From a virus, in the IMG/VR virus record IMGVR_UViG_3300037493_005411, positions 1 through 34,176 of that record: a stretch of DNA of 34,176 nucleotides. One strand, 5' to 3'. Position numbers and translations under genes: made by a program. The notes beneath the pieces are model-generated. The model was not told the DNA's origin, did no database searches, and worked only from the letters and a program-made list of their open reading frames with translations. This document shows positions 8,450-33,247 of the stretch, in pieces (positions within the stretch are counted from its first letter, which is position 1; the number at the start of each line of letters is the position of its first letter).

Positions 8450-8453
8450 TGTA

Positions 8454-9578
8454 ATGGCTTTCACTAAAAAAGTTTGGGTTTCAGGCGGTAATATACCATA
8501 TACCGATTTAAATAGATTAGAAGTAGGCGTTAATGACATATATAATATAGCTGTTACGCTTAATGGTCACAAGACATTTGGTAGTAATCTATCACATATA
8601 GCGGCAAGTTCATATAAGATTAGTTTTAAGGCTGCTGCTGCTTCTAGGTCTTATATACATTCACCATCATCTACCGCTATTCAATTTGACCAAGAAGCGA
8701 GTTATACTAATCCGTTTAGATTTGAATCGCCTATAGGTACATTGGCTAATTTAGAGTTAAAAGATATTAATAGTATAGCTATAGAGAGTCACGCCGCAAG
8801 GCACAAAAATGGTGGTGCAGATACATTAATAAGAACACCAAATATAGTAGTAGCCCTGTCTGGACAAGGAGGAGATTATACCTCATTAAGTGCAGCAATA
8901 GCAGCCAGTGTAATTGGCGATGTTATTTATGTTAGAGAGGGCGTATATTATGAGTCTGGTATTATAACGCCAAAAAACAATACCACTATAATTGGTTCTG
9001 GCTGGAGAACAATTATTGAGTTAAATAGTACTAGTGCAAGATTTAATATGACAGGTAGTGGTGTTGTAATGAGGAATTTTACTATAAGAAATACAGTATA
9101 TACTGATGCAAATTATTTGGTTGAGATTTCTGGTTCATATGTAGTATTAGATGATATTTATGTAATATCTAGATTACATGGAATAAGAACAACAGGTACT
9201 AAAATATGGATAAAAAATTGTTTAGTTGAAAATACAATGGGTAGTACAGATGTAAGAGGAATAATGTTAAGTGGTTATGGTTGTTTTGTTACCGCTTGCA
9301 GAACTTTTAATTTTTTCCTTGGTATAAGCATGACAACTTCGAGACACATAGTTTCAAATAACGATATACAGGGTTATGGAGGAGGAGCCGGCCTACAATT
9401 ATTCAGCACTGCTAACTATTGTGTAATGAGTAATAATAGGGTTAGGTCTCACTTTACTTCTTTAATATTGGACTCAGGTGTTACAAGATGCATATCTAAT
9501 GGCCTAGCATATACATTGTCTGCAGCGCCTATTAATTCTGGTACTAATTGTAGTGTAACACAATCAATGGCATATTGA
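8454..9578 (+). CDS. Beta-helix tail fibre 2
   Basis: A 374-residue paralogue of the preceding fibre. I place the start at the ATG following GGTGATGTA, which gives MAFTKKVWVSGGNIPYTDLN and matches the N-terminus of its neighbour. An upstream in-frame ATG would overlap the previous gene by 83 bases. The attachment segment (residues 1-37) and the ARHKNGGADTL hinge (about 122) are conserved. A beta-helix follows with repeats such as MRNFTIRN, LDDIYVIS, IKNCLVEN, SNNDIQG, SNNRVRS. The helical body is very different from that of fibre 1 while the anchor is alike, which suggests shuffling of binding specificities. The C-terminus holds two cysteines and is not homologous to fibre 1. Confidence 0.82.
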   Translation: MAFTKKVWVSGGNIPYTDLNRLEVGVNDIYNIAVTLNGHKTFGSNLSHIAASSYKISFKAAAASRSYIHSPSSTAIQFDQEASYTNPFRFESPIGTLANLELKDINSIAIESHAARHKNGGADTLIRTPNIVVALSGQGGDYTSLSAAIAASVIGDVIYVREGVYYESGIITPKNNTTIIGSGWRTIIELNSTSARFNMTGSGVVMRNFTIRNTVYTDANYLVEISGSYVVLDDIYVISRLHGIRTTGTKIWIKNCLVENTMGSTDVRGIMLSGYGCFVTACRTFNFFLGISMTTSRHIVSNNDIQGYGGGAGLQLFSTANYCVMSNNRVRSHFTSLILDSGVTRCISNGLAYTLSAAPINSGTNCSVTQSMAY

Positions 9579-9587
9579 GGTGATTAA

Positions 9588-10700
9588 ATGGGTTTACCGC
9601 CAGGACCAAGTTATAGCAGCAAGACATGGACAGCAGGAGAAAAGATAACGGTTACCGCTCTAAATCAATTAGAGGATTATATAAATGCAATGTTTGTAGG
9701 TAATGTATCAATAACGGGTAATAAAACTCTTCCTGATGGAATGACAACAGAGGATTTAAAACTTATCGTTAGTACTGTAGAAAAGGGAAGAATATATCAC
9801 AATGGTACTAGGTTAATATTTAAGTCATTAGATAATAATCCGATTAAGTTTGCTGAAAATACTGTCGTATCCAATAGTGATTTGGAGGTATTTTCTGTTA
9901 ATGGTATAAAACCCGAAGCACATAAAAATAGACATGCTGTAAACGGCGCAGACCCTGTGTCTAGAAAAGCGACAGTGTTTGTAGGAACAAATGGCGATTT
10001 TACTACGATATCAGCTGCGGTTACTTATTGCACTACAAACTTTCCTAACGGTTCAAGAATATTTGTTACTACAGGTACATATAATGAGAATGTTACTTTA
10101 ACAACCAGTATGGATTTAATTGGTATGGGTAAACCAATAATAACAGGGCAGGTTAGTGTATTAGAACAAAGTACTGTTTCGGGATTTCACGTACAAAGTG
10201 GTATTGTAATTAGTACTGCAGGTGGATATAATGTTATAGAAAGAAATGTAGTTAACGGTGATTTGGGTATTGATGTTAGAGGTGTCCATAATGTTATTAG
10301 AAATAATTATGTTCTTGCGGGTGCATCACATCAAATGGGTATATTTTTAGAAGGTGCAGGTTCGGGTATTGTAATGGGTTATTCGAAGGTAATCAATAAT
10401 ATAATAAACGGATATGATAGAGGTATAGCTATTTATAATTACGGTCATATTGTTTCTGGTAATATAATCAATGGATGGGGAACTGAAGGTATATATGTAT
10501 TGGGTCCGGGCACCCCCGCGAATGTAGGATTAATCATATCAAATAATCATATTAATGCATTTACAAATTATGGTATTAGGTCAGGTAGCACTACTGCACA
10601 ATATTTATTAGTTCATGGTAATTATACTGTAGCGTGTGTTTCACAAATATCTATATTAGGTGCTGGTTCAATAGTTGAGAATAATCATAGCGGTACATAG
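9588..10700 (+). CDS. Beta-helix tail fibre 3
   Basis: A 370-residue third member of the fibre family, more divergent at the N-terminus. SKTWTAGEKITVTALNQLED still follows the K-x-W-x-x-G-x-x-I-x-x-x-x-L-N-x-x-E pattern of the other two. A NRHAVNGADPV hinge lies near 114, then TVFVGTNGDFTTISAAV opens the beta-helix. Ladder repeats include ERNVVNG, RNNYVLAG, INNIINGYD, SGNIINGWG, SNNHINAF, HGNYTV, ENNHSG. The GDFTTISAA segment is the usual entry to pectate-lyase-like folds in phage fibres. The start is preceded by GAGGTGATTAA. It probably forms a host-binding trimer. Whether all three fibres sit on one particle or act as alternatives cannot be told. Confidence 0.82.
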   Translation: MGLPPGPSYSSKTWTAGEKITVTALNQLEDYINAMFVGNVSITGNKTLPDGMTTEDLKLIVSTVEKGRIYHNGTRLIFKSLDNNPIKFAENTVVSNSDLEVFSVNGIKPEAHKNRHAVNGADPVSRKATVFVGTNGDFTTISAAVTYCTTNFPNGSRIFVTTGTYNENVTLTTSMDLIGMGKPIITGQVSVLEQSTVSGFHVQSGIVISTAGGYNVIERNVVNGDLGIDVRGVHNVIRNNYVLAGASHQMGIFLEGAGSGIVMGYSKVINNIINGYDRGIAIYNYGHIVSGNIINGWGTEGIYVLGPGTPANVGLIISNNHINAFTNYGIRSGSTTAQYLLVHGNYTVACVSQISILGAGSIVENNHSGT

Positions 10701-11095: not shown

Positions 11096-11845
11096 TTAAG
11101 AATACGTTACGGGGTCTTGGGAACCTGCTTCTTTAAATCCCGCGAGTCGCAAGATACAGGAATCACATTGGCCGCAAGGTTTCTCTCCTCCTGTATAGCA
11201 GCTCCATGTTAGATTGTAAGGTACATTCAAGTCGAGACCGCGTTTGATTATTTTTGCTTTGGTCAGCTTGAGTAGCGGAGCTTTTATTTTCAGCACTTTT
11301 CCTTCCACTCCTGCTTTAGTTGCTAAATTGGCAAGGATTGCGAACTGTTCAAGGAACTCTTCTCTGCAGTCAGGGTAACCGCTATAGTCCAACTGATTTA
11401 CCCCTATCCATATTTCTTCAGCTCCAACAACTTCGGCATATCCCATTGCAATACTTAACATAATTGTATTGCGCGCAGGTACATATGTGATTGGAATTTC
11501 TTTAGACATTTCTACCGATGACCTCTCCAAAGGCACATTATATTTATCGTCTGTTAGTGCACTACCGCCTATAGCTCTAAGGTCAACTTTAACTGTTTTT
11601 AACCCTTTAACATGAGTCGTATTTCCATAAGGTGTGGCTTCTACACTCTTAGCAATATAATGCATAACTACATCGTGTATGGCTCTTAACTCAGCACTAT
11701 GTTTTTGACCATATTCAATAGATAATGGATACACATCTCTATTCTCTGAGAGTGCTATAGCTATACATGTTGTAGAGTCCAAACCCCCAGAGGTAAGCAC
11801 TACTGCTTTCTTTCTTTTATCTTCTAACTTACCTGCCATTAGCAT
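11096..11845 (-). CDS. queC: 7-cyano-7-deazaguanine (preQ0) synthase QueC
   Basis: QueC converts 7-carboxy-7-deazaguanine to preQ0 using ATP and ammonia, the last step of the preQ0 pathway. The 249-residue protein has the PP-loop ATP site SGGLDST at 19-25. The family middle motif includes VPARNTIMLSIA and GVNQLDYSGYPDCR. The C-terminal zinc site uses C216, C224, C227 and C230 (CYTGGEKPCGQCDSC). Length is normal for stand-alone QueC; no amidotransferase domain is fused. The start overlaps the end of the HD-domain gene. A second ATG two codons on also overlaps that stop as TAATG, but the first has better spacing to GGAGG. It is the promoter-distal gene of the operon. Confidence 0.95.
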   Translation of the reverse strand: MLMAGKLEDKRKKAVVLTSGGLDSTTCIAIALSENRDVYPLSIEYGQKHSAELRAIHDVVMHYIAKSVEATPYGNTTHVKGLKTVKVDLRAIGGSALTDDKYNVPLERSSVEMSKEIPITYVPARNTIMLSIAMGYAEVVGAEEIWIGVNQLDYSGYPDCREEFLEQFAILANLATKAGVEGKVLKIKAPLLKLTKAKIIKRGLDLNVPYNLTWSCYTGGEKPCGQCDSCILRLAGFKEAGSQDPVTYS

Positions 11846-12420
11846 TTCTTAAGCCTCCTTGCTTCCATTTCTTTATCCAACTTCGGAACTATAGTTGCCA
11901 TATAGTCAGCCATACAAATAGCGTAATCCAACAGCTTAGTAGGTTGAGGACAATATGCATACCAGTGTGACATGTGACACTTTACTAAATCACATATCTC
12001 TTCTATCTTAGGCATTTCAAGCTTAAGTTCCTCATTAGCTAACTTAATTACCTCTGCGCCATCGTAAGGATGCTTCTTACCATAATCATATTGACTCCAG
12101 CCGCAATGTGGATAATACTTCCAATTACCTTCTTCCTTTTGACCTAAGAAAGTCGTTTTCGTTCTACCTATATCATGAAGCAAACAGGCAGCTATTAATA
12201 TATCTAACTGTTCACCCTTAATCTTAAACTCTCTAGCAATCTCCTCTGCACAAGCAACTGTATCAATCAAATGGTCCTCCATTGTTACTTCGTGTAAGTG
12301 ATGCTTACCACTTGGACTCGGGGGAAATGATTGTATCCAGTCCTTATACTTTTCAAGTATTGCTTTCGTTCCTTCTCTTATGTCCTTATTTTCTATTAGC
12401 TTTAGCTCTCGTTCCAACAT
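11839..12420 (-). CDS. HD-domain metal-dependent phosphohydrolase
   Basis: A 193-residue all-helical protein with the HD superfamily signature: H in MEDHLIDT, the HD pair in AACLLHDIGRTKT, H in KKHPYDGAEV and SHW, and a final D in YAICMADYMA. The HD is followed by GRTKT as in nucleotide phosphohydrolases. I choose the ATG preceded by GAGAAGGTGTTTAT; an in-frame ATG eight codons upstream lacks a site. It is coupled to queC, so a role in 7-deazaguanine or nucleotide supply is likely. It might clear phosphates from a pathway intermediate or hydrolyse a dNTP. In archaea the MptB HD enzyme acts after the FolE2-like MptA, which is an alternative, but the other genes here favour preQ0. The substrate cannot be read from sequence. 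Confidence 0.8.
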   Translation of the reverse strand: MLERELKLIENKDIREGTKAILEKYKDWIQSFPPSPSGKHHLHEVTMEDHLIDTVACAEEIAREFKIKGEQLDILIAACLLHDIGRTKTTFLGQKEEGNWKYYPHCGWSQYDYGKKHPYDGAEVIKLANEELKLEMPKIEEICDLVKCHMSHWYAYCPQPTKLLDYAICMADYMATIVPKLDKEMEARRLKKC

Positions 12421-12563
12421 ATAAACACCTTCTCGACAGTCCAATATTTTTTTACTACCTATACCAATATTTATCTTTTTATTTCAATGTCGACCGTATA
12501 GACATTATGTTTTTTCGTTGCGGCGCCTAATTAATATGGGTTAACATTTTAAAATTTTCTTCC
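12421..12563 (-). promoter_or_regulatory. 143-base gap, possible internal promoter for the HD-queC pair
   Basis: This is the only sizeable gap inside the leftward preQ0 gene run. On the minus strand it is AT-rich, with AAAAAGATAAATATTGG about 40-50 bases before the HD start, a plausible but weak archaeal TATA element. A small inverted repeat (AATGTC at 12486-12491 and GACATT at 12501-12506) lies just upstream of it, and a GGCGCC palindrome lies further up. It may allow queC and the HD gene to be expressed separately from folE2. No gene is visible in it. Confidence 0.35.
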
Positions 12564-13352
12564 TCAGGAATCGAAGTTCTTACTACCATGATACTTTTGA
12601 CCTTCTACCATTGCATAAGCATCATGTGTGTGAATACTCTCATAGTTTGTTGCTTCGACCTTATAATAGTTCACTTGTGGATGACGCATTAGCAATATTT
12701 TTGCTTCCCTTACAACATCTTCAACAAATCTTGGATTATTATAAGCCGCCTCTGTCACAAATTTTTCATCAGGTCTCTTTAATAAAGGATATATTGGACA
12801 TGAACCCGCTTTATTTGCAATATCTACTATCTCTTCTATCCATACCCATCCATCACATCTTACTGTAATTGAAACCACTCCTCTTTGATTATGTGCACCA
12901 TAATCACTAATTTCTTTGCTGCATGGACAAAGAGTAGTTACAGGTGTGTGAACAGTTAGAGTTAACTCATCATCATTGGCTTCAAATTCAACCTGAACTT
13001 TAATAAATGAATACATCTTGCTTACAGGCGCCTCTACTTTTATAAAATATGGAAACTTTACCTTTACATATCCACTAGTCGCACCTAATTTCTTTATAAT
13101 TTCAGGCATGATAGTCATAGAGAGTAGTTTCAAACTTAAAGGTTCATCAATACTTGAAAAGTACTGAACAAATCTACTCATATGCGTTCCCTTAATATCT
13201 TCAGGAAGTGAAACACTTGCATTAAATACTCCTACAGTGTGTTGTATTCCGTCGGTCTTGTCCTTCACCATTATAGGTAAAGATAGTCCTCTTATACCTA
13301 CTCTTTGAATGGTTATCCCTCTTTTGTCTGTTCCGTTTTGTACGTCTTTCAT
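12564..13352 (-). CDS. folE2: GTP cyclohydrolase IB (FolE2 family)
   Basis: FolE2-type enzymes open the ring of GTP to 7,8-dihydroneopterin triphosphate, the entry into the preQ0 pathway. The archaeal relative MptA makes the cyclic phosphate form. The 262-residue protein has the family blocks GTHMSRFV (about 55-62), the metal and substrate site CPCSKEISDYGAHNQRG (about 142-158), KRPDEKFVTEAAYNNPRFVE (about 192-211) and NYESIHTHDAYA (about 237-248). Length and motif order are complete, with no truncation. It starts after AAGGAAGGAATAATT, three bases behind the small cysteine protein gene. Linkage to queD, queE and queC makes preQ0 synthesis the obvious role. Confidence 0.93.
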   Translation of the reverse strand: MKDVQNGTDKRGITIQRVGIRGLSLPIMVKDKTDGIQHTVGVFNASVSLPEDIKGTHMSRFVQYFSSIDEPLSLKLLSMTIMPEIIKKLGATSGYVKVKFPYFIKVEAPVSKMYSFIKVQVEFEANDDELTLTVHTPVTTLCPCSKEISDYGAHNQRGVVSITVRCDGWVWIEEIVDIANKAGSCPIYPLLKRPDEKFVTEAAYNNPRFVEDVVREAKILLMRHPQVNYYKVEATNYESIHTHDAYAMVEGQKYHGSKNFDS

Positions 13353-13354
13353 AA

Positions 13355-13699
13355 TTATTCCTTCCTTCCTTTATGACTACGCCATACTCTCTTAATAAAC
13401 TGCGGAAGCAATTTACTATGAAAGTCAGCAACCTTTATTTTTTTACCCTGTGAATTATATACTTCACAATATTTGCAACCATCACTTATACAAAATGCAT
13501 CTAAAGTATCATCACAATCTTCTAAGTGACACTCTAAACATATCTTGCTACCATCGTTAAACATTATAGTTGCTTTCTTCATTAAATCCTCTGTCTCCTC
13601 TTCATCTCCATCTTCATCAAAAAAGGTGACAGGAACAATCTCACTATCTACTCTTTCGATACTAATATCTGTCTTCCCTTTAGAGACAGTTTCAAACAC
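13355..13699 (-). CDS. Small acidic cysteine-rich protein in the preQ0 operon
   Basis: A 114-residue protein of no recognised family with a GTG start, preceded by GAGGTGA that overlaps the end of queE. Residues 22-50 are very acidic and end in a strand-like MFNDGSK segment. Then come cysteines arranged as CLECHLEDC (about 54-61), a further C near 70, and CKYC (75-78), which could bind one zinc ion or an iron-sulfur cluster. The C-terminus is basic and ends in RSHKGRKE. Its place between queE and folE2 suggests a link to 7-deazaguanine metabolism or to the modified DNA, but this is only guilt by association. Confidence 0.7.
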   Translation of the reverse strand: MFETVSKGKTDISIERVDSEIVPVTFFDEDGDEEETEDLMKKATIMFNDGSKICLECHLEDCDDTLDAFCISDGCKYCEVYNSQGKKIKVADFHSKLLPQFIKRVWRSHKGRKE

Positions 13700-14393
13700 C
13701 GCGAGTCACCTCAGGCCAAATAACTTTATGCATTTGGATTTGCATTCTAACTGGAAGCTTATTTCTTAATATTCTACTTGCTAATTCTTTAGGCCAGTCT
13801 TCTTGTTCTTTACCCATACAAGGTGAGAAGATGATACTCCTGTTATTTTTATATTGCTCGGGTATTATTAAATCTACTACATCTTGTGCATAAATAAAAT
13901 CAGCTTCGTCTTTGATAACGAACTTAATTTCTGAATTTTTATCCAGACATCTCATTAATGCATAAATATCCCCATGTGACATAGGATTACCTGAACTTGG
14001 ACATTTAATATCGGTTATTATATAACAACCAAGTTCAATTAATTCCTTAGGTATAGCGTAACTTCCATTTGTTTCTATAGAAATAACAATTGAGCCTCCA
14101 AACCTTTCTCTTAATACCTTTATTAATAATATAAGCTCAGGTGCTTGTATTAACGGTTCACCACCAGTAAAACACACAAACATATAGTTATTGTGTCGAT
14201 ATACTAATTCGCTCTCAATATTCTTTAGAATATCTGCTGCACTTATCTCTGAGAACTTTTCTTCCTTTCTTGCATAGTCACTATCGCACCACTTACAATC
14301 CAAATTACATCCATATAGTCTTATGAACATTGTTGGTATTCCAGCGAAGGAACTCTCACCTTGTATACTTGTAAATATCTCACTTATCTTCAT
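13692..14393 (-). CDS. queE: 7-carboxy-7-deazaguanine synthase QueE (radical SAM)
   Basis: QueE rearranges 6-carboxy-tetrahydropterin to 7-carboxy-7-deazaguanine by radical SAM chemistry. The 233-residue protein begins with ISEIFTSIQGESSFAGIP, the usual QueE opening. It has the cluster motif C29-x3-C33-x2-C36 (CNLDCKWCDS), the SAM motif TGGEPLIQ (about 75-82) and ETNGSY (about 105-110). DIKCPSSGN (about 127-135) contributes to substrate binding in the family. All key residues are present. The start overlaps the queD stop in ATGA. QueE in archaea and phages typically has this compact length. Confidence 0.94.
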   Translation of the reverse strand: MKISEIFTSIQGESSFAGIPTMFIRLYGCNLDCKWCDSDYARKEEKFSEISAADILKNIESELVYRHNNYMFVCFTGGEPLIQAPELILLIKVLRERFGGSIVISIETNGSYAIPKELIELGCYIITDIKCPSSGNPMSHGDIYALMRCLDKNSEIKFVIKDEADFIYAQDVVDLIIPEQYKNNRSIIFSPCMGKEQEDWPKELASRILRNKLPVRMQIQMHKVIWPEVTRGV

Positions 14394-14839
14394 TCTTCTT
14401 CCTCCTTAAACGGCGGTTCTGTATATGCATATGTAACTGCAGACGACCTCTCACCCTCATAAAGTGTTACCTCAACGAGATGAAGCTGCGGGAATCGGGT
14501 TATTAATATATCTGCAAAGTATTGTGCTACATTCTCACAGGTTATTACATCTACAGGCATTTCTATTGCATCATCAAATGAAAAACATAATTCCCTATAG
14601 TCCTCCATTTTTGAACAATCAGAAATCTTCGGAAACCAAACCTTATGGTCAAACTGATTAAGCAGTGCTTTTACATCATTGAAATCTACAACCATTCCGT
14701 CCTCCTGTATAGTTCCAGAAAGTTCAACTACTACCTTCCAGTTATGACCGTGAAGATTAAAGCACTTCGTATCTACTGTATGCACCATATGTGCAGCTGC
14801 TAATGTTACCTCACACTTAATTGCCGAGAGTTTTTCCAT
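14390..14839 (-). CDS. queD: 6-carboxy-tetrahydropterin synthase QueD
   Basis: QueD turns dihydroneopterin triphosphate into 6-carboxy-5,6,7,8-tetrahydropterin. The 149-residue protein has the T-fold signature: zinc ligands H17, H30 and H32 (AAAH then LHGHNW) and the catalytic cysteine C26. It also has GMVVDFNDVK (about 48-57) for the strand and helix at the interface, an FDHK near 68-71, and TCENVAQYFA with LYEGERSSA near the end, the pterin-anchoring glutamate region. Length is slightly above bacterial QueD because of an insertion around 75-90. It starts after AGGAGGAAGCGTT and overlaps the DUF3310 gene by 23 bases. Confidence 0.94.
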   Translation of the reverse strand: MEKLSAIKCEVTLAAAHMVHTVDTKCFNLHGHNWKVVVELSGTIQEDGMVVDFNDVKALLNQFDHKVWFPKISDCSKMEDYRELCFSFDDAIEMPVDVITCENVAQYFADILITRFPQLHLVEVTLYEGERSSAVTYAYTEPPFKEEEE

Positions 14840-16293: not shown

Positions 16294-17051
16294 TAAGTCA
16301 CCTGTCCTTCATCCATTTTACATTTTCCTTCGTAAGGGCAATATTGGCAGCCCCAACCCGGATTCGCATCGAATTGTCTATTCTTTATTCCCTCTTTGAC
16401 CTTTTCCAAATTTCTAAAGAATGCTTTTCTCGACGCTTCTTTCAATTCTTCGAAGAACATATCCCCCGACCGCGCAAACATAATACCAATGTATTTCACT
16501 TTTCCAGGTACTATTTTATTTACCTCAGCCAAATGTGCATAACCAGCAAGTTCTAATCTATACTTACTATATGCACTATCATGTTTAGGTTTATCACTTA
16601 CCTTATAATCAATAACTACAAAGTCATCTCCTACCTTATCTATTCTATCTAATGTACCGTAGAACATTAATTCTCTGTCTTCCATATATAATTCTCGATG
16701 AAATGGGAAAAAGTCCATAGTGACCTTTCCCACCCCACCAAGATTATCAAATCGCGTCTGTTCGAGCTTTATAAAGTTCAAGTAATGAATCTCGGTTCCT
16801 AAAAATTTACTATATTCATCAGAGAGAGAAACTTGACCTGAAAGTATCTTTTCTTTATCTATTAGGTCATAAAGTTTCTCCACATCATTATGGAATATTG
16901 TACCAATAACCATAACCTCTGGTAAGTCCTCTGGTTCAAGATTATCGACAACCATATATTTAAATCTCTTAGGGCATTGCTTATACATATGTAGGCCCGA
17001 TTTCGAGAAAGCCATGGTGTCAAAGTTGAACTCCATAAAGCGTCTTGTCAT
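16293..17051 (-). CDS. Cas4/RecB-like PD-(D/E)XK nuclease with iron-sulfur motif
   Basis: A 252-residue protein of the Cas4/AddB-type nuclease group. C26 in YKQCPKRFKY pairs with a C-terminal triad C235, C238 and C244 (CQYCPYEGKC) to give a 4Fe-4S site. The nuclease core shows GTIFHNDVE (motif I histidine), YGTLDRID (motif II aspartate), FVVIDYKV (D-x-K) and LELAGYAHL (motif IV-like). All catalytic residues are present. Family members cut single strands from the end or trim ends. No CRISPR genes or array are nearby, so this is a phage recombination or repair nuclease rather than an adaptation protein. It lies between the DpdA-like fusion and the metallophosphoesterase and is coupled to both. 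Confidence 0.88.
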   Translation of the reverse strand: MTRRFMEFNFDTMAFSKSGLHMYKQCPKRFKYMVVDNLEPEDLPEVMVIGTIFHNDVEKLYDLIDKEKILSGQVSLSDEYSKFLGTEIHYLNFIKLEQTRFDNLGGVGKVTMDFFPFHRELYMEDRELMFYGTLDRIDKVGDDFVVIDYKVSDKPKHDSAYSKYRLELAGYAHLAEVNKIVPGKVKYIGIMFARSGDMFFEELKEASRKAFFRNLEKVKEGIKNRQFDANPGWGCQYCPYEGKCKMDEGQVT

Positions 17052-18670
17052 TAATCACCTGTTATCTGCTCGTCTGCAACAATAACAGCATCATCGAATT
17101 CAGACTCATCTGTTGTTGTGTATTTATCGCCTTTCATCTTTGCGAACAGGTTATTAACTCCCGCGAAGTATGCTCCATAGTTCCAAAGCATCTGTGCGTT
17201 GTACATTGCAGTATTTCTCTTTTCTGCAAGTGTTAGTCCTTGGAATGCCTCACCATCTTCTGGGTTAATCCACTTGTTAATTCTCGTCTGTACAGTTGGT
17301 GTTTGATTATCTACCTGCGTTACACCATATTTGTATAGTTCAACAAGTATCTTGGGGCTTCCAATACCGAAGGCATGAATTCCTAATCTTGGGTTTATCC
17401 TGTGTACATTATCGCAACAGAACTTATATCTATCTAGCGTCTTTTCCATCTTTTCTCCTGCTGAGGAACCGACACCAATGATATTGTTATCATTTTCGAA
17501 GATACCCATTTCGTGGAATGCATTTATACAAACCATGTATTCTCTCTTCTCGTAACCTTGCAACACATAAACCTTTCTTGCATTTGTTTCGAGCTTCATG
17601 AACTTTTCTGCATTCTCAATTGTTATCGCTTGTGCTTCTTGAACACTCATTCCACACTTGTCTAACAATTTTGGCTTGCACAGTACATCCAACATCACAA
17701 CAGTATCAGCGTCTACTGCATTAGCTAAAGCAACTACTTCCTTCTGTCTCTTGAACCAATCAGTATCATTCTTATCCATTGCGATAATTGAACTTGAATC
17801 AATCATCAGAGAGTCCATTAACTTCCTCTTGTTGATGATATCCTCAACCATTGGAAGCCTTGCTCTGGCATGCAATATATGATATGCACTAACCAAAATA
17901 TTCTTCTGTGGTAGCACTTGCCAATCAACCCTAACAGCTGCACCAAGTGTAAAGTAGAGTTTGAAATCTGGCGGAATAAATATATCACGTCCAGCCTTTG
18001 ATTCTTTTGGTGGTGCATCAAGAGCTTCACCAGTTAAATTTGGTATTGCAGCAAGAACCTTCGCCTTGCGGGTATACATTTTAACTTCATCGTTAAGTCT
18101 TGTCTTTGCAATATCACCAGATACCACTTTCTTTGCATACTTAACCCTCTGGTCTTCATCATCTATCTGCTTGAGGATATTGATATCAAACAAAGTAAGT
18201 TTTCCCAGATGGGCCTGTTCCTTCAAATATTCAGGTTGCTTAAGTACAGATAGTACATTCGTAACCGTTGAAGGTGTAGACTGGAATGTTTTACACAATG
18301 CCTTTATATCCTTACCATACTTATCAATCATAGTTTGATAAGATAATGACAATTCATATAACGACAAATCTTGTCTCTGTTCATTAAACAGTACAGCAAG
18401 CTCATATGCTTCTGATTCTGTTATGCCTTCATATACCGCACATGAGACTTCTGTTTCGCCCATCTTTTGTAGGGCTAAAAATCTACAGTGCCCAGATATG
18501 ATTTCATATTCGTCTATATCTGGAGACGGCTTCCAAACGGTTAGTGCACCCTTAAAACCCTTTGTCTTAAAAGTTTCCACCAAGTCATTTATATACTTGT
18601 CGTCGTACTCACTTCTCGGCTGATTCGGCATCAACCGTATTTTCTTCATCGGTAACGTTTCCGTTGACAT
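17051..18670 (-). CDS. dpdA: ParB-domain fused to DpdA-like TGT-fold DNA 7-deazaguanine transglycosylase
   Basis: A 539-residue fusion. Residues 8-110 resemble the ParB/Srx N-terminal domain (LMPNQPRSEY, then SGHCRFLALQKMG at 59-71, the counterpart of the ParB nucleotide-binding G-E-R-R box). Residues 115-170 match the ParB helix-turn-helix middle domain (LCKTFQSTPSTVTNVLSVLK). Residues 255-470 follow the TGT barrel: D291 in MIDSSS (general-base position), D328 in VVMLDVL, VLQGYEKREY at 369-378, IIGVGSS at 397-403, IHAFGIGSP at 431-439, and D454 in QVDNQTP as the likely nucleophile. The TGT zinc-binding cysteine motif is absent, as in DpdA enzymes that insert preQ0-type bases into DNA. It leads the preQ0 operon. 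The strong GGGAGG site fixes the start, 62 bases inside the upstream gene. Confidence 0.85.
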   Translation of the reverse strand: MSTETLPMKKIRLMPNQPRSEYDDKYINDLVETFKTKGFKGALTVWKPSPDIDEYEIISGHCRFLALQKMGETEVSCAVYEGITESEAYELAVLFNEQRQDLSLYELSLSYQTMIDKYGKDIKALCKTFQSTPSTVTNVLSVLKQPEYLKEQAHLGKLTLFDINILKQIDDEDQRVKYAKKVVSGDIAKTRLNDEVKMYTRKAKVLAAIPNLTGEALDAPPKESKAGRDIFIPPDFKLYFTLGAAVRVDWQVLPQKNILVSAYHILHARARLPMVEDIINKRKLMDSLMIDSSSIIAMDKNDTDWFKRQKEVVALANAVDADTVVMLDVLCKPKLLDKCGMSVQEAQAITIENAEKFMKLETNARKVYVLQGYEKREYMVCINAFHEMGIFENDNNIIGVGSSAGEKMEKTLDRYKFCCDNVHRINPRLGIHAFGIGSPKILVELYKYGVTQVDNQTPTVQTRINKWINPEDGEAFQGLTLAEKRNTAMYNAQMLWNYGAYFAGVNNLFAKMKGDKYTTTDESEFDDAVIVADEQITGD

Positions 18671-24069: not shown

Positions 24070-26430
24070 CTAGAAATTCCCTAATGTCATTTGTTTTTGA
24101 CCGCTTTTTACCTCGCTCATGGTTAATCCATACGCGATAAGTATCGGTTCTATTTTAGCGTCTATCACTTTGGCGGTCTGTACGTTCCAATCGATAATAT
24201 TATCATATTTAGACAAATCGTCCTCAGGGCCTAACGCAATCCTATCTACATCTTTAACAACTGTCTCACCTTTAAATACATAACTAACTTTACTCGGTAA
24301 ACCATCAGGTACTCTCTTAACATAAAATCTATATGGTCTACTATCTCTTCCTTCACCTACACCAAAGTTCTTTCCCATATAAGTATTGCTAAATATAATA
24401 TCTAACATACTGCCTGGATTACCATATTCCTTATAATCCTTCTTCATGGGTTTCGGTATACCAACTTCCTCTATATCTCCACTCTTTCTCATTCTAATAA
24501 TACTATCCTTAACAAATTGTCTAATCTCCTTCTCGCTCTTATCATGTAATATTAAATCTAATGCACCTACTTGCAATTTCTGACTTGTAGGACTACTATC
24601 GCTTCTTTTACTTTCAAACCCCTTAATAATAACCTCATCAGCCTCTTTACCTTTATACCAACAACACAAACCTGCATATCTCTTTTTCTTTCCACTAAAT
24701 AACAACCTACTATAAACTTGCTCAAACTCAATTATAGGTGGCATCTTCCATCCTTCAGTTTTAGCTTTCTCTTCAAACATAATATTAATATCTTTCTCTA
24801 ACATTAATCCCCACTCTACTGGGTCACCCTCGATAATCCTAGCCAATATACTATCTGTATCCCCATATAGCGCATCCATCTTTCTCTCATCAATATATGC
24901 AATAACTTGTTTAACTAATCCTCTTCCAATGAATGTAGTGCTTTTCGAAATTAACGGATAGTACAATCTGCTTCCAACATATGCAAAGTATCCATACACT
25001 GCAGCAGTCATTTGTTTATATGAATATTGTTCTAAATCATATACCTTATATCTTGGGTCACTTGTTTTTAATCCCTTCATCTTTTTCTTAACTTCGTTTC
25101 TTGCTGTATTTAACTTCTCTAACATCTTAGGAACAATTCCTTGCGGGAATCTCTTAAAATATACACCATCAATTTCAAATAACTCTTCTGGTTTGTATTT
25201 CTTTACATCTTGAGGTTTAACTAATGTCTCAGGAGACATATTGAAACTGATAATGATACTAGGATACATCCTAGCAAAATCCAATGCAATAACGTTCTTA
25301 AATACACCCTTCTTAGGTTGCACCACATATGCACCTTCAAACTTTTCTGTTTCTGCTCCAAAAAACTGACCTCCTGTAGGCACTGCAAATTTTCCATGAT
25401 ACTCTCTTAACAACATCATTCCAGCATATCTTCCAACAGTAAATGAGTCCTCAATAGAACATCCAGCTGTCTTTCTAATTCCATCAAAATGGTCAATCAA
25501 TTCTAAATGTCTATCTATATCAATTAACTTCTGAACATCGTCATTATTATAAGGTTCAATTATATCCAAAAACCTTCTATTCATCTTATTATTATAATCG
25601 AATTTCTCTTCTTTCTCCCAACCTAACTTATACTCATCTCTTGCTGCAATATCATCGAGTTTAAAACTTGGAAACACTTTATTTTGATAAAACTGCTTAA
25701 ATGCAGCTAACAAATCTACTACATTTCTTCCCATGACCCTTACTGTAGGGTACCTTAAATCAACATATCCAAACGGACTCAACATACCTGGGTCAATATT
25801 TAACTTCCTACATCTACTAATGATATAAGCTAAATCATAATAAACATTCCATCCAGTAATAATATCGGGGTCTAATAAATTAACCTTCTTAATAAACTCA
25901 TACAATACTGCAATTTCCTCATTTTCATTTCTAATTAACATCTGAACTATTTTATCTCCATTCATTGAAAATCCAATACATAATATCATATCTTTAGCTG
26001 CATTAGGGTCAATAGCATTGCCAGTAACTTCTGTTTCAATATCTAAATACATCTTATTATACTTCTGACCGTTATCCCTATCTATAGGAACTAAACTATT
26101 ATCAATAACTGTAAATCCAGATTTAATTTCCTTATCAATTAAAAATCTCCAAGGATACAATACATCAGCTTCATAAGTTACTGAATATGCCTCTCTTGCT
26201 GTTCTAACATCTTTAGGTAATCCAACATAAACTTTAGCAACTTCAGTACCATCAACACTAGTCATATACGCATCAGTATCTGTAACCTGGTGTTTAGGAG
26301 CCCAAAAATAAGGAGTATAATCTTCCTTTTCAAAAAGGCAAACCTTACCATTCTCGTCTCGCGCCCTAATTAAAATTACAGGCATTCCTTTTCTTACCGT
26401 GTAATCTGCACACATCAGCAAGTAGTCCAT
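24070..26430 (-). CDS. polB: Family B DNA polymerase with PIP box
   Basis: A 786-residue replicative polymerase with proofreading. Exonuclease motifs are DIETE (D130, E132), NVYYDLAY (D199) and YNNDD (Y294, D298). Polymerase motifs are DFARMYPSII at 384-393, KQMTAAVYGYFAY around 472-484, YGDTDSI at 522-528, and KKKRYAG around 581-587. The last residues QMTLGNF (780-786) form a Q-x-x-L-x-x-F clamp-binding box, so it should use a PCNA-type clamp supplied by the host. The architecture is that of archaeal/eukaryotic PolB rather than protein-primed enzymes; no TPR insertions are seen. No intein. It overlaps the upstream TGT-like gene by 16 bases and starts after GAAGGTTAAACC. Confidence 0.97.
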   Translation of the reverse strand: MDYLLMCADYTVRKGMPVILIRARDENGKVCLFEKEDYTPYFWAPKHQVTDTDAYMTSVDGTEVAKVYVGLPKDVRTAREAYSVTYEADVLYPWRFLIDKEIKSGFTVIDNSLVPIDRDNGQKYNKMYLDIETEVTGNAIDPNAAKDMILCIGFSMNGDKIVQMLIRNENEEIAVLYEFIKKVNLLDPDIITGWNVYYDLAYIISRCRKLNIDPGMLSPFGYVDLRYPTVRVMGRNVVDLLAAFKQFYQNKVFPSFKLDDIAARDEYKLGWEKEEKFDYNNKMNRRFLDIIEPYNNDDVQKLIDIDRHLELIDHFDGIRKTAGCSIEDSFTVGRYAGMMLLREYHGKFAVPTGGQFFGAETEKFEGAYVVQPKKGVFKNVIALDFARMYPSIIISFNMSPETLVKPQDVKKYKPEELFEIDGVYFKRFPQGIVPKMLEKLNTARNEVKKKMKGLKTSDPRYKVYDLEQYSYKQMTAAVYGYFAYVGSRLYYPLISKSTTFIGRGLVKQVIAYIDERKMDALYGDTDSILARIIEGDPVEWGLMLEKDINIMFEEKAKTEGWKMPPIIEFEQVYSRLLFSGKKKRYAGLCCWYKGKEADEVIIKGFESKRSDSSPTSQKLQVGALDLILHDKSEKEIRQFVKDSIIRMRKSGDIEEVGIPKPMKKDYKEYGNPGSMLDIIFSNTYMGKNFGVGEGRDSRPYRFYVKRVPDGLPSKVSYVFKGETVVKDVDRIALGPEDDLSKYDNIIDWNVQTAKVIDAKIEPILIAYGLTMSEVKSGQKQMTLGNF

Positions 26431-27167
26431 GGTTTAACCTTCTCTTCGTTAGCTAGCTCTCTCAGAATATCGCAATTCTGAATCGCGAATGCCAACTGTT
26501 CTTTATCGAACGCCATTTCAGGAGTATATTTAGTACTAAAAATAGAATCCTTTCTAATATACTTATTTTCTAATCCTGCTTTATAAGGCATTGAAGTATC
26601 AAAAGACATAACACTCTTTTGATTACACATACTTAACTCTTTTACACAACTTAATCCTAATAAATGAAACGGAATCGGTATCTTTTCATCGAGTGACCAA
26701 GTAAAAAATGGTCTAATATATCCCGTCATATCTCCCCACTCATCTTTAGCTAAACCAACAATATCTACATCACAACAAATCTTCTCATAACACCAAGTAA
26801 ACTCAGAAAGTGTTCTTCCATGCGGAACACCCATAACCTTAAACTTACATAATTCCTTCTCTGACATACATCCTAAAAACTCTAATGTAAACTCGGCTGT
26901 CTTCTTTGCATCTTTCCAAACGTCTGGTGCTACAATCGTAGTTGCACCAATAGCATCAGCCATTTCTAAATATTTCTCCACTGGATAAGCTTCCCTAAAC
27001 TCAAATACACCATTATCCAATATTAACTTTGCTCCCTCTTCGGTCCTCTTCTTATAAAAGGTTAAGAGGGCCTCCCTCTGTTCAACCCATTGGGCAACCG
27101 TCAGGTAATGCTGACAATTTTTATCCCCGCCGAGATGTTCAAAGGGAGGTATTGAGTAATAGTCCAC
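26415..27167 (-). CDS. Second TGT-fold protein, minimal DpdA-like
   Basis: A 250-residue protein that follows the tRNA-guanine-transglycosylase barrel without any extra domain. LILDNGVFEF has D51 in the place of the D-S-G-G general base, and TIVAPDVWKD has D82 in the substrate-recognition place. VMGVPHGRTLSEF corresponds to the V-Q-G strand, and IPFHLLGLSCVKEL to the H-x-x-G-x-G-x-P turn. SFDTSMP has D190 at the nucleophile place. The zinc-binding cysteine set of bacterial and archaeal TGT is missing, as is the PUA domain of archaeosine TGT, so DNA is a better substrate guess than tRNA. I use the GTG start behind AGGGGTGCATAAC; a GTG three codons upstream is also possible. It lies between the Sak4-like and polymerase genes, coupled to both. 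Confidence 0.75.
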   Translation of the reverse strand: MDYYSIPPFEHLGGDKNCQHYLTVAQWVEQREALLTFYKKRTEEGAKLILDNGVFEFREAYPVEKYLEMADAIGATTIVAPDVWKDAKKTAEFTLEFLGCMSEKELCKFKVMGVPHGRTLSEFTWCYEKICCDVDIVGLAKDEWGDMTGYIRPFFTWSLDEKIPIPFHLLGLSCVKELSMCNQKSVMSFDTSMPYKAGLENKYIRKDSIFSTKYTPEMAFDKEQLAFAIQNCDILRELANEEKVKPWTTC

Positions 27168-27168
27168 G

Positions 27169-28044
27169 TTATGCACCCCTAAGTGTATTATAAAATTCTT
27201 TTAAGCCAGTCCATTTGGTACCAGCTTTGCTTACTTCTGCAAACGTGTATTCTTTTCCTTCGACTTCTAAAGCACCTTTTGCTTTTTCTACTACAGCTAT
27301 AAATACTGTACCCGCACTACTGGTTGTTCTCTTTAAAAACAACTTTTGAAACATAATTCCAGGAGTCGACTTTTCCCAATCTGGTTTACTATCTTTCGTA
27401 ACAAGTTGTCCAGCTCTATATTCTTTTATCTCCTTCATATGAGTTGTAAAAAACCTATCACAGTGCAAGTGCTTTATTAACTGAATTACGGTCAAATAAC
27501 GTCTATTTCTTTTTGACCACTGCCATTGGTCCTTAATCTGCACATTGGGGTCTACTTTAAGGTCCTCGTATCTCATTACTTGTTCGCAAATTTTAAGTAG
27601 TGTATCAAGACCATCTAAACAGACAGCCTTGAGATTTAAACTTTCTTCGTTCTCAGTAATATACCTAATGATTGCGAGAACCTTATTATATGTCGTAACA
27701 TAATCGACCTTGCCATCCTGTAGCAACGTTGTGGGGTCCAGAATAATCATACCATCGTCATCAGGAAAGAACTTTTCCTTTAGAGGAGAACAGCTAGCAT
27801 CAAGGTCTATTATTATAACCTTTTTGCCAGCCTTAACCTCCTCTTCAGACCTACAGTCCATCATTACTCCAGATTTGCCCACACCGTCTTCGCCATAGAT
27901 AGCTGCACAGATAGGAGACCGGGTTTCGCGTTTAATCGCGCCTGTTATCCAAGAGGCAACTTCAGCATTGTTGAACGTCTTTGGTGCTTCGTCCTCTGCT
28001 GTGGCTTTCCCTGAAAGACCACCCCAGCCTCCATCTTCTGGCAT
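27169..28044 (-). CDS. Sak4-like RecA-fold ATPase
   Basis: A 291-residue P-loop ATPase. The first 25 residues are flexible. Walker A is GEDGVGKS (51-58), Walker B is in LKAVCLDGLDTLL (about 138-150), and the segment RFFTTHMKEIKEY (about 197-209) fits the sensor strand of AAA_24/Sak4 recombinases. These RecA-core proteins promote single-strand annealing and work with a partner SSB in phage recombination. The gene directly upstream encodes the ssDNA-binding candidate, the usual arrangement. It starts after GGTGAATTAAA, which also carries the previous stop. The exact subtype cannot be proven by eye. Confidence 0.82.
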   Translation of the reverse strand: MPEDGGWGGLSGKATAEDEAPKTFNNAEVASWITGAIKRETRSPICAAIYGEDGVGKSGVMMDCRSEEEVKAGKKVIIIDLDASCSPLKEKFFPDDDGMIILDPTTLLQDGKVDYVTTYNKVLAIIRYITENEESLNLKAVCLDGLDTLLKICEQVMRYEDLKVDPNVQIKDQWQWSKRNRRYLTVIQLIKHLHCDRFFTTHMKEIKEYRAGQLVTKDSKPDWEKSTPGIMFQKLFLKRTTSSAGTVFIAVVEKAKGALEVEGKEYTFAEVSKAGTKWTGLKEFYNTLRGA

Positions 28045-29505: not shown

Positions 29506-30111
29506 ATGAATGTCGAACCTTCCCCATTCGTATATCCGCAAACTATATATACTATTGTCGATATCATATATAATGGAAACCCTGATAAAATGATAGCAGT
29601 CGTAGGACCTGAAGGGTCAGGCAAATCAGAATATTGCCAAACCTTCGATAAGTTAATAGTACACGCAGCACCACGCACTTCTAAGTGGAAATCTCCTGAT
29701 AGTAAACTCGGGAGGATTTTTTATGAACTAGCGGTAGCAGCAGAAAGGTTTTGGGTATATATTAAGTTAGAGATGTCAATAGAGACTTATGATAATATTA
29801 TGTTAGATAATTGCTTTATCGATTCAGAGGTATATGGTCAACTTTGGTCAGTTAAAGTAGGAAGCATATTACCGTTGTTTATATCTAAGTTTTTGAGTAA
29901 CTTTTCGCCCAAGCCTGATGTTATTCATCAATTATCACCGTCTATGACTCTTAATGAAAGTGATAATGACTTACTGGAAGGTCTATATATATTTGCACTA
30001 AAACGCCATGGTTATATTCAGTATAATCAGAAACAATATAAGGAAGGTGTATTAACAATATGGAAAAAGGATTTGAATTCCTCGTCGATAGTCGAGAGAA
30101 AAAGGAACTAA
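29506..30111 (+). CDS. P-loop nucleoside/nucleotide kinase-like protein
   Basis: A 201-residue protein whose Walker A is VGPEGSGKS (33-41). Later YDNIMLDNCFIDSEVYGQLW (about 95-114) resembles the D-R-x-x-x-S-x-x-V-Y stretch of deoxynucleoside kinases and thymidylate kinases, in which the helix covers the base pocket. The C-terminal third is helical and lysine-rich with an SSSIVERKR end. It would supply dNMP or dNDP for the virus. Its first residues are not preceded by a ribosome site. The last 52 bases overlap the ERCC4-nuclease gene. Thymidylate or deoxynucleoside specificity cannot be distinguished. Confidence 0.72.
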   Translation: MNVEPSPFVYPQTIYTIVDIIYNGNPDKMIAVVGPEGSGKSEYCQTFDKLIVHAAPRTSKWKSPDSKLGRIFYELAVAAERFWVYIKLEMSIETYDNIMLDNCFIDSEVYGQLWSVKVGSILPLFISKFLSNFSPKPDVIHQLSPSMTLNESDNDLLEGLYIFALKRHGYIQYNQKQYKEGVLTIWKKDLNSSSIVERKRN

Positions 30112-30743
30112 CATTAGCTATAGTTGAAAGAAAAGGAATACCTCATAGGGTTACGGCTCTTACTGCTGGAGATTTTGCACTTAGAGATTTAAATTGCAAA
30201 CCAGTGAGGACTATTGTGGGAATTGAGCGTAAAGCAATTCCAGATTTAATGGGTTCGATCCAAAGTCAAAGAATATTTGAACAGTGTAAAAGACTTGTAG
30301 ACCTTTATGATATTCCATATCTTATGATTAGTGGAGATATAGGAGATTATTTAAGACGAATGGATAAAATACATCTTAAGACTAATATTAATGTCATCTA
30401 TGGAACGATTGCATCTTTATCGGTCAAGGGCGGCATACAAGTAATGTGGTTTCCAGATGACGTAACGTTAATTGATGTTGCTTATCGTATTTGTGAGAAG
30501 GTTAGTGAAGGTAAATATGACCAGGGATTCCGCAAGAAGGAAAAGTACCTGAATTTTACTGCAAGAAATATATTATCAGGCGTTCCGGGAATTACTCCCA
30601 GTCTTGCAGGTGATTTGCTTAAAACATTTGGTGATTTAAAGGGTGTCGCTAATGCACCCAAAGATGATTTAACAAAGGTTAAAGGCGTTGGAGATAGTAT
30701 GGCAGATAAGATTATTACATTGTTTAATACCAAATACCAATAA
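30060..30743 (+). CDS. XPF/ERCC4-type structure-specific nuclease
   Basis: A 227-residue protein with the ERCC4 nuclease core and a tandem helix-hairpin-helix end. D10 in FLVDSREKKE, D38 in TAGDFAL, and E56-R57-K58...D62 in VGIERKAIPDL form the G-D-Xn-E-R-K-X3-D active site of XPF, Mus81 and archaeal Hef. Residues 170-225 contain SGVPGITPSLAGDLLKTFG and VKGVGDSMADKII, the two HhH motifs that bind junction DNA. It is a short stand-alone form without a helicase domain, as in crenarchaeal and viral XPF. It would cut branched intermediates during replication or recombination. The start lies after GGAAGGTGTATTAACAAT. Confidence 0.92.
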   Translation: MEKGFEFLVDSREKKELTLAIVERKGIPHRVTALTAGDFALRDLNCKPVRTIVGIERKAIPDLMGSIQSQRIFEQCKRLVDLYDIPYLMISGDIGDYLRRMDKIHLKTNINVIYGTIASLSVKGGIQVMWFPDDVTLIDVAYRICEKVSEGKYDQGFRKKEKYLNFTARNILSGVPGITPSLAGDLLKTFGDLKGVANAPKDDLTKVKGVGDSMADKIITLFNTKYQ

Positions 30744-31992: not shown

Positions 31993-32226
31993 TTAAGGGT
32001 AAAGTTGTTCGGAAAACTCTTGCCCTTCTTGTGTTGAGGTAAGCGCTAATAATTCGGCCTCTTCATCCCATACTGGGGATTTGGAAGGTATCTCTTTAAT
32101 TATGTCTCTGTATACAATATTTTGTCTATTACCAAGGTTACAGCAGTAGGCATAGTAAGCAGCGGCAATGGATATGACAAAGAGTATAACACTGCATAAT
32201 TCCAAAACATCACCTAAGGAACTCAT
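31993..32226 (-). CDS. Small N-terminally anchored membrane protein
   Basis: A 77-residue protein with one hydrophobic span (about 6-28, DVLELCSVILFVISIAAAYY). A short basic region and an acidic, soluble tail follow (residues 50-77). The start overlaps the deoxyribosyltransferase-like gene by 17 bases. The nearest Shine-Dalgarno sequence is poor, so the exact start is uncertain. The role is unknown. Confidence 0.55.
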   Translation of the reverse strand: MSSLGDVLELCSVILFVISIAAAYYAYCCNLGNRQNIVYRDIIKEIPSKSPVWDEEAELLALTSTQEGQEFSEQLYP

Positions 32227-32632
32227 CTTCCATTTCGTTGAAGTTTGTATATATGTCTGTGCAATGATGTTTTAACCAAGGATGATTTACATAACCATTT
32301 GTTATAACTCCTGCTATTAGTTTTTTCGATAGGTGTGCATAAACTATTTCCATTATTGTTCCATAGCTAGTATCCCCATTTATATATGCAATTATTGCAT
32401 CACAATCCTCTATAAGTGCTAAATCTTCTTCAACAATTAATCTTGGATTTAGGCTTCCTAACAAATTTAAAATATTTATATTCCCCTCATCGGCTCTTCT
32501 AACCAATTCTTGTTCCTTTTCTGAATCATAAAAAGGATTGACAAACGAATGCTGAAATCTACTCTCTGCTTTAAGTTGCCACTCTCTGATGAATTTGCGC
32601 GTACTAAATGGATGTGCAAGATAAATCTTCAA
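32210..32632 (-). CDS. Nucleoside 2-deoxyribosyltransferase-like protein
   Basis: A 140-residue protein using a TTG start behind AGGTGATTTAAG. It begins MKIYLAHPFSTRKFIREWQL, the typical first strand and loop of the nucleoside 2-deoxyribosyltransferase superfamily. NPFYDSEKEQ (about 32-41) and VEEDLALIEDCDAIIAYING follow, and then TSYGTIMEIVYAH (about 88-100), where E94 would be the nucleophile. These enzymes cleave or exchange the base of deoxynucleosides and deoxynucleotides. Here it would remodel nucleotide pools, perhaps for the modified base. Relatives with purely hydrolytic action exist, so the reaction is not fixed. Confidence 0.75.
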   Translation of the reverse strand: MKIYLAHPFSTRKFIREWQLKAESRFQHSFVNPFYDSEKEQELVRRADEGNINILNLLGSLNPRLIVEEDLALIEDCDAIIAYINGDTSYGTIMEIVYAHLSKKLIAGVITNGYVNHPWLKHHCTDIYTNFNEMEDEFLR

Positions 32633-32633
32633 C

Positions 32634-33098
32634 TTAAATCACCTTAGTCTCTCTGTCATAAGGGAATTTTAACCAGCCACAGTCTTCAGATAATAACACT
32701 CCTATATAATCTGGGTCTATTCGTGAAGTTGACCTTTTATATACAACGCCAGTATGAACAGATGTAAATTTTAATCCAGCCAATACACCCTTAACATCAG
32801 AAAGTGTTACACCTTCATCTGCAATATCATCAACTAATAATATCATATCTGTATATTGAAGTGTATGCAATCCCGTTAGATGTGACATTCTCGTTTCGCC
32901 ACTAGGTTCCTTATCTTTATATCTCTGTGCAAAAATAACTAACATCGGGATATTTAGCATTTTGCTTATATAAAGAGCAGGTACTAAACCTCCTCTACCA
33001 ATACCAATTACAACATCATACTTGATATTACTACCCTTTATTTGTGCAATCATAGTATCGATGTGACTCACATATGTATTCCAATCAACTTCAACCAT
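32634..33098 (-). CDS. Type I phosphoribosyltransferase
   Basis: A 154-residue protein with the PRTase fold. The ATG at MVEVDWNTYV follows AAGGAGTGGAATATA, with good spacing; an upstream TTG in frame lies inside the previous gene. DVVIGIGRGGLVPALYIS (about 28-45) forms the PPi loop, and ILLVDDIADEGVTLSDV (about 86-102) is the PRPP-binding motif with its acidic pair. Substrate specificity (xanthine/hypoxanthine/guanine type by look, VDDIADEG) is not readable. It sits with the deoxyribosyltransferase-like gene, and the pair suggests base salvage or exchange. Confidence 0.85.
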   Translation of the reverse strand: MVEVDWNTYVSHIDTMIAQIKGSNIKYDVVIGIGRGGLVPALYISKMLNIPMLVIFAQRYKDKEPSGETRMSHLTGLHTLQYTDMILLVDDIADEGVTLSDVKGVLAGLKFTSVHTGVVYKRSTSRIDPDYIGVLLSEDCGWLKFPYDRETKVI

Positions 33099-33247
33099 TA
33101 TATTCCACTCCTTATCCAAACGTTTGTTTCATAAGCTACTTTGCAATCATTAAGAAATTCTTCTTTACTCAATCCATGAGTTAGATAACTTTCAGAGACA
33201 GCATCAAGAGTCTTTAGTAGTCTGTCTCTTAAGTCATCTCTCATCAT
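33098..33247 (-). CDS. 49-residue hypothetical protein
   Basis: A short helical protein (MMRDDLRDRLLKTLDAVSES and onward). It fits exactly between two genes, overlapping the upstream stop in ATGA and giving TAATG with the PRTase start. The CGGTGATTGA site precedes it. It carries a single cysteine and has no family match. Its coupling makes it credible. Confidence 0.6.
   Translation of the reverse strand: MMRDDLRDRLLKTLDAVSESYLTHGLSKEEFLNDCKVAYETNVWIRSGI

Follow-up and report, generated by a model that had tools for sequence, protein, structure and literature searches.

A small DpdA3-like protein, probably a DNA-guanine transglycosylase, encoded beside DNA polymerase B in a virus that also carries a ParB-fused DpdA

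The window analysed here is the whole of a 34,176-nucleotide stretch of viral DNA (IMG/VR record IMGVR_UViG_3300037493_005411, positions 1 to 34,176). On its minus strand, genes for a Sak4-like ATPase, a small stand-alone TGT-fold protein and a family B DNA polymerase follow one another in this order (Table 1), an arrangement that a preliminary description of the sequence had claimed and that the Pfam and PHROG matches of both neighbours bear out. The small gene can be read from two GTG codons. We prefer the second, at 27167, because it lies 1 nt after the TAA of the Sak4-like gene, has a GGGGTG approximately 6 nt upstream, and gives a start residue shared with relatives (MDFYVIPP / VDYYSIPP); the first would yield a protein of 253 aa (27176-26415, minus strand). 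Residue numbers below (D54, D85, H119, H171, G174 and D193) count from GTG 27176. The 3' end of the gene overlaps the polymerase ATG (26430) by 16 nt.

Table 1. Features of the window discussed in the text
Feature	Position	Strand	Basis or detail
QueC (preQ0 synthase)	11096..11845	-	Pfam QueC 1.8e-69
HD-domain phosphohydrolase inside preQ0 cluster (queC-folE2)	11839..12444	-	Pfam HD 7.4e-12
FolE2-type GTP cyclohydrolase	12564..13352	-	Pfam GCHY-1 3.9e-84; NCBIfam FolE2 above cut-off
QueE-like radical SAM protein	13692..14393	-	Pfam Radical_SAM; position in queC-folE2-queE-queD cluster
QueD-like 6-pyruvoyl-tetrahydropterin synthase family	14390..14839	-	Pfam PTPS 4.2e-23
ParB-fused TGT-fold protein (ParB_N and HTH_ParB plus a DpdA/TGT domain)	17051..18670	-	Pfam ParB_N, HTH_ParB, DpdA 4.7e-10, TGT 2.9e-7, all above cut-off
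DNA polymerase family B, downstream of and overlapping small TGT gene	24070..26430	-	Pfam DNA_pol_B 3e-50
Small stand-alone TGT-fold protein (candidate DpdA3-like DNA-guanine transglycosylase)	26415..27167	-	250 aa, GTG 27167
D193 codon (SFDTSMP)	26598..26600	-	47/47 Asp; aligns with TGT/DpdA nucleophile motif
H119 codon (GVPHG)	26820..26822	-	Position of TGT 'IIQGS' Gln
D85 codon (APDV motif)	26922..26924	-	47/47 Asp
D54 codon (ILDNG motif)	27015..27017	-	47/47 Asp; aligns with TGT DSGGF Asp, DpdA1 LDSGAF
Sak4-like AAA_24 ATPase, directly upstream of small TGT gene	27169..28044	-	Pfam AAA_24, phrog_124

As looked for in the genome of a DpdA3-like protein, a preQ0 gene cluster (FolE2, QueD, QueE and QueC) lies in the same window. 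Elsewhere in it, a nucleoside deoxyribosyltransferase-like gene adjoins a phosphoribosyltransferase gene (32210-33119, minus strand). The phosphoribosyltransferase (32634-33119) matches phrog_8995, shared with the PRTase of the preQ0 cluster of phage immuto, and could salvage released guanine. An open reading frame at 29506-30111 (plus strand) encodes a GPEGSGKS P-loop protein resembling thymidylate kinases; it gave no match to kinase profiles. The products of three consecutive genes at 7319-10700 (plus strand) have N-terminal features in common (K.W.....I...LNR.E) and resemble beta-helix tail proteins that are paralogous to one another.

The virus is probably an archaeal tailed virus, judging from its polymerase B, nearest to those of haloarchaeal tailed viruses, and from an ERCC4+HHH (Hef-like) nuclease (30060-30743) that matches only Methanobacterium virus Drs3; a baseplate gene gave mixed matches. 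Searches of IMG/VR found no close relatives of the small protein, the ParB-fused protein or the polymerase, and a search of 84,980 prokaryote genomes (GTDB) found none for either TGT-fold protein.

As a single query, the small protein matched no Pfam family and no solved structure; it is matched by PHROGs 20335 and 19058, both of function unknown. A tblastn search of 50,697 phage records retrieved 15 relatives, and searches from two of the relatives added the Campylobacter CP220-type phages, Weizmannia Youna2, Aeromonas Ahp1 and Brevundimonas StAshley to the family. A profile of 46 relatives, with the window sequence left out, scored 110 bits (E 1e-32) against the small protein and at best 7.4 bits against 2000 shuffles of it, which argues that its motifs are not due to chance. 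Against the PDB, a nine-member family profile matched DpdA 7ui4, a DNA-guanine transglycosylase, with E 4e-5, the weaker matches being mostly TGTs; this result depends on the diversity of the alignment, since a profile from an immuto-dominated alignment found no TGT there. The AlphaFold2 model built with 39 viral homologues (mean pLDDT 80, pTM 0.81; pLDDT 31 without an alignment) is a single barrel with eight strands in barrel order, filling the whole chain and leaving no space for a PUA domain. All 50 matches listed in a Foldseek search of the PDB with this model were TGTs (best E 2e-8), and structural realignment with VIA-align, in both cases over 235 residues, gave Z 18.1 for archaeosine TGT 1j2b and Z 17.7 for DpdA 7ui4. 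The closest viral model, among the matches listed, was a Cellulophaga phiST protein (TM 0.82). By model, Foldseek and realignment, the predicted fold is of the TGT-type (beta/alpha)8 kind, and on profile and modelled structure the small protein is a member of the TGT superfamily. The unrelated TIM-barrel family that the preliminary description had named as a possible outcome of profile searches did not appear: profile and structure matches are to TGT and DpdA.

The five TGT-like motifs of that description are all present and in the right order. All of the 47 family members compared have D54, D85, H171, G174 and D193, so that the three aspartates, whose loss in homologues would have spoken against a TGT-like enzyme, are kept throughout. 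The columns of D54 and D193 align with E. coli TGT and with DpdA1/2, the motif around D193 being aligned with SIDSTTP in 7ui4 (HMMER) and with FDCVMP in E. coli TGT. D85 is aligned with an aspartate of DpdA1; the E. coli TGT row is shifted at this column, for which reason we only infer that D85 is the counterpart of the guanine-recognising aspartate of TGTs. At the position of the TGT glutamine, the small protein, BSP7, Youna2 and DpdA1 have histidine, and most other relatives have glutamine. No zinc motif (CxCxxC...H) follows the nucleophile motif of the small protein, where only two cysteines come after D193, and the C-terminal PUA domain typical of archaeal TGTs is absent, the protein ending with the barrel. 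Both absences had been reported before, and sequence and AlphaFold2 model agree on them.

These features bear on whether the small protein could be a tRNA-guanine transglycosylase working on host or viral tRNA. The fold is the same, the top single structural match is an archaeosine TGT with tRNA, and the host may be archaeal. We nevertheless hold this reading to be very improbable: the protein has 250 aa and neither zinc site nor PUA domain, it clusters with phage DpdA proteins from preQ0 clusters beside DNA polymerases, and there is no tRNA gene in the window.

By sequence comparison, the small protein is a divergent member of a known small phage DpdA family (Campylobacter CP220, Flavobacterium immuto, Cellulophaga phiST, Bacillus BSP7), and not a new kind. 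It is 21-27% identical to its nearest relatives, and the family member in the immuto record is annotated 'DNA guanine transglycosylase, DpdA'. This membership was missed in the preliminary description, which had rightly read a TGT fold and two architectures. In a tree of 26 proteins and 280 columns, whose deep branches are long and of unsure order, a branch separates it and 12 others, the CP220/immuto/phiST/BSP7 set, from the remaining proteins (57/88; 59% of bootstraps), a modest support for the DpdA3-like clade. DpdA1 forms its own clade, DpdA2 another (100/99), and the small protein is in neither. At the profile level, the small family matches DpdA1 weakly (E 0.008), DpdA2 of Vibrio phage nt-1 with E 1.3e-5, and HVTV-1 gene 69, which we take to be DpdA4, with E 7.6e-6. 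We tentatively identify the small family with the DpdA3 of Cui and colleagues, who are said to have named this subfamily in 2023 and tied it to complete guanine replacement. Genomes of CP220-type Campylobacter phages are described, in a passage of Hutinet et al., 2019 (PMC6884629) that cites Crippen 2019, as highly dADG-modified, and these phages are listed in the same paper with preQ0 genes and with DpdA absent.

The other TGT-fold protein of the window carries its own DSS, LDV, QG and VDNQTP motifs, with the Asp motifs intact. In the tree, its TGT domain joins DpdA1 and mycobacteriophage DpdA (97/95). BLAST finds no match between the small and the ParB-fused proteins, and their kinship is visible only at the level of profiles (E 3.5e-5) and aligned columns. 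The two proteins thus differ in architecture, as previously claimed, and in subfamily as well. DpdB, of the ParB superfamily, generally accompanies DpdA (mycobacteriophage CRB2 paper, PMC6392294), so that a fusion of the DpdB-DpdA type is the simplest reading of the ParB-fused protein. None of the phage records matched this protein across 80% of its length. A viral protein of 424 aa, named 'ParB/Sulfiredoxin', weakly matches the fold of the small protein (E 3e-3, rank 37), which hints at ParB-TGT-type fusions elsewhere.

To the preliminary description, two such enzymes in one virus seemed unusual, and the pairing does appear rare. We scanned 46 records (the window, 44 reached via DpdA3-like loci, and nt-1, whose enzyme is instead a DpdA2) with the Pfam DpdA and TGT models. 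A second TGT/DpdA domain above cut-off was found in the window only and in 0/44 other DpdA3-like records, in a set where many records are fragments, one lineage is dominant and the Pfam models miss DpdA2-type proteins (that of nt-1 was missed). Three records had DpdA matches near E 0.01, below cut-off. The genera with DpdA2 found by tblastn show no overlap with those in our DpdA3-like lists. As the preliminary description proposed, the two enzymes may differ in sequence context or in timing (replication-coupled versus clamp-guided). Could they also insert different deazapurines? This is less likely, as there is one preQ0 pathway and neither QueF, ArcS nor Gat-QueC was seen in the window, a partial record. 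The co-occurrence of both proteins would also suit a small protein that is a non-catalytic TGT-fold partner, binding DNA or helping the ParB-fused DpdA in the manner of the non-catalytic subunit of eukaryotic TGT, and active TGTs are dimers (PMC6884629). We give very little credit to such a role, since the catalytic-type aspartates are all kept, here and across the family, and since most records show no further TGT/DpdA domain in our scan, so that the small protein can presumably act without a partner of this sort.

Clusters of preQ0 genes are present in phages that encode the relatives, CP220-type Campylobacter phages included, and adjacency of the small gene to a DNA polymerase recurs: polB here, polA in BSP7 and Youna2 (8-nt overlap), and a DNA polymerase as the next gene in StAshley; in phiST, PolIII alpha lies two genes on from the dpdA3-like gene. 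This position beside unrelated DNA polymerases suggests action at replication. A dNMP/thymidylate-kinase-like gene is also found beside the dpdA3-like gene, or at most three genes from it, in 7 of 8 reference phage records (L001, L002, L003, L004, L008, L009, L010 and L011), and five genes away in the eighth. The seven nearby genes fall into four PHROG families (phrog_2107, 761, 139 and 19196), the Pfam model Thymidylate_kin being too strict for the phage kinases of these loci. The dpdA3-like gene is followed, in L001 (10900-11424) and in the majority of related IMG/VR loci, by a formyltransferase-like gene that carries the annotation phosphoribosylglycinamide formyltransferase; we take it to be, possibly, the preQ1 formylating enzyme of Cui and colleagues (2023).

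The recurrent kinases raise an alternative, nucleotide-level exchange, in which preQ0 would replace the base of dGMP or of another mononucleotide, a dNMP kinase would make the triphosphate, and the viral polymerase would insert it. Near-complete replacement and the missing DNA-binding subdomains would both be explained, and a modified-dGTP route has been proposed for Campylobacter phages (PMC6884629). HD proteins might contribute, possibly by depleting dGTP: one is encoded in the que cluster of the window, and in CP220 an HD and P-loop protein lies directly upstream of the dpdA3-like gene. In Z-genome phages, HD dATPases deplete their nucleotide. Several other dpdA3-like genomes have HD domains mostly far from dpdA3, so the idea is drawn from the window and CP220. 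Yet no kinase gene adjoins the small gene in the window, where the nearest candidate is the open reading frame at 29506-30111, recognisable by its P-loop only, and for this reason we keep exchange at the DNA level as the first model. Furthermore, characterised members of the TGT fold act on nucleic acid, and the kinases near dpdA3 could equally serve the salvage of guanine released by exchange in DNA, so that they fit either route. Cui and colleagues reportedly argue, in 2023, for post-replicative insertion. We thus see nucleotide-level exchange as unlikely, if worth keeping in mind.

On sequence and modelled structure, we consider it quite likely that the product of the small gene is a DNA-guanine transglycosylase from the small phage subfamily, reduced to one (beta/alpha)8 barrel, and that it replaces G by preQ0 in viral DNA. 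Building on its predicted fold and subfamily, its invariant residues and its neighbouring genes, we propose the following chemistry. FolE2, QueD, QueE and QueC of the virus would make preQ0. D193 would attack C1' of deoxyguanosine in viral DNA, guanine would leave, and preQ0 would take its place via a covalent D193 intermediate; a covalent Asp intermediate is established for the TGT family. D54 would serve as acid/base, with the purine being recognised by D85 together with H119. All this would be done without the zinc subdomain and the PUA domain that TGTs use on tRNA. The enzyme would probably work at the fork, on DNA that is single-stranded or has just been synthesised, given the location of its gene between those of the Sak4-like ATPase and the DNA polymerase, although a position in an operon is not proof of coupling to replication. 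Most or all guanines may be replaced. Substrate and extent of replacement are not simply transferable from the relatives, because of the low identity and because every relative with a named host is a bacterial phage. The ParB-fused DpdA would be an enzyme in its own right, supplied from the same preQ0 pool. An extension of this scheme, which we regard as speculative and rather improbable, is a two-tier system in which the small enzyme modifies guanine in bulk within the replication complex (possibly using dG mononucleotides on their way to the polymerase) and the ParB-fused DpdA, loaded in the manner of a ParB clamp, marks selected sites, giving bulk and site-specific layers of 7-deazaguanine.

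The enzyme class described here is known, but its pairing is unusual and its host probably so: the class of small DNA-guanine transglycosylases, possibly of the complete-replacement kind, is met in an apparent archaeal tailed virus and beside an enzyme of another subfamily. It offers a natural system for asking why one virus needs two guanine-swapping enzymes, and how wholesale guanine replacement happens, whether by exchange in fork DNA or in nucleotides. For this last question, a concrete lead comes from the repeated occurrence of the gene next to nucleotide kinases and to DNA polymerases that are unrelated to each other.

Compared with known systems, the small protein is closest to the small phage DpdA proteins (CP220/CPt10, immuto, phiST, BSP7), with which it shares a size of ~250-290 aa, a barrel-only architecture, the Asp/His/Gly motifs, a preQ0 cluster and a gene that often adjoins a DNA polymerase; it departs from them by its 21-27% identity, a probable archaeal virus, FolE2 in place of FolE, the lack of an adjacent kinase, and a genome that encodes another TGT-fold enzyme besides. 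With DpdA1 (phage 9g) and mycobacteriophage DpdA it has in common the TGT fold, the catalytic Asp motifs and, for 9g, the histidine at the TGT Gln position, but these form a separate subfamily, on whose side the ParB-fused protein sits and the small one does not. DpdA2 (Vibrio phage nt-1) likewise has the TGT fold and a preQ0 cluster, yet its members are longer (403-464 aa) and in a separate clade. Bacterial and archaeal tRNA-guanine transglycosylases share the fold (Z ~18) and the catalytic motifs, and differ by the zinc site and PUA domain that the small protein lacks, which makes a tRNA substrate unlikely for it. Finally, HVTV-1 gene 69, from a halovirus and hence also from an archaeal tailed virus, aligns at the HLLG and nucleophile motifs, whereas its protein has 386 aa and sits on a very long branch.
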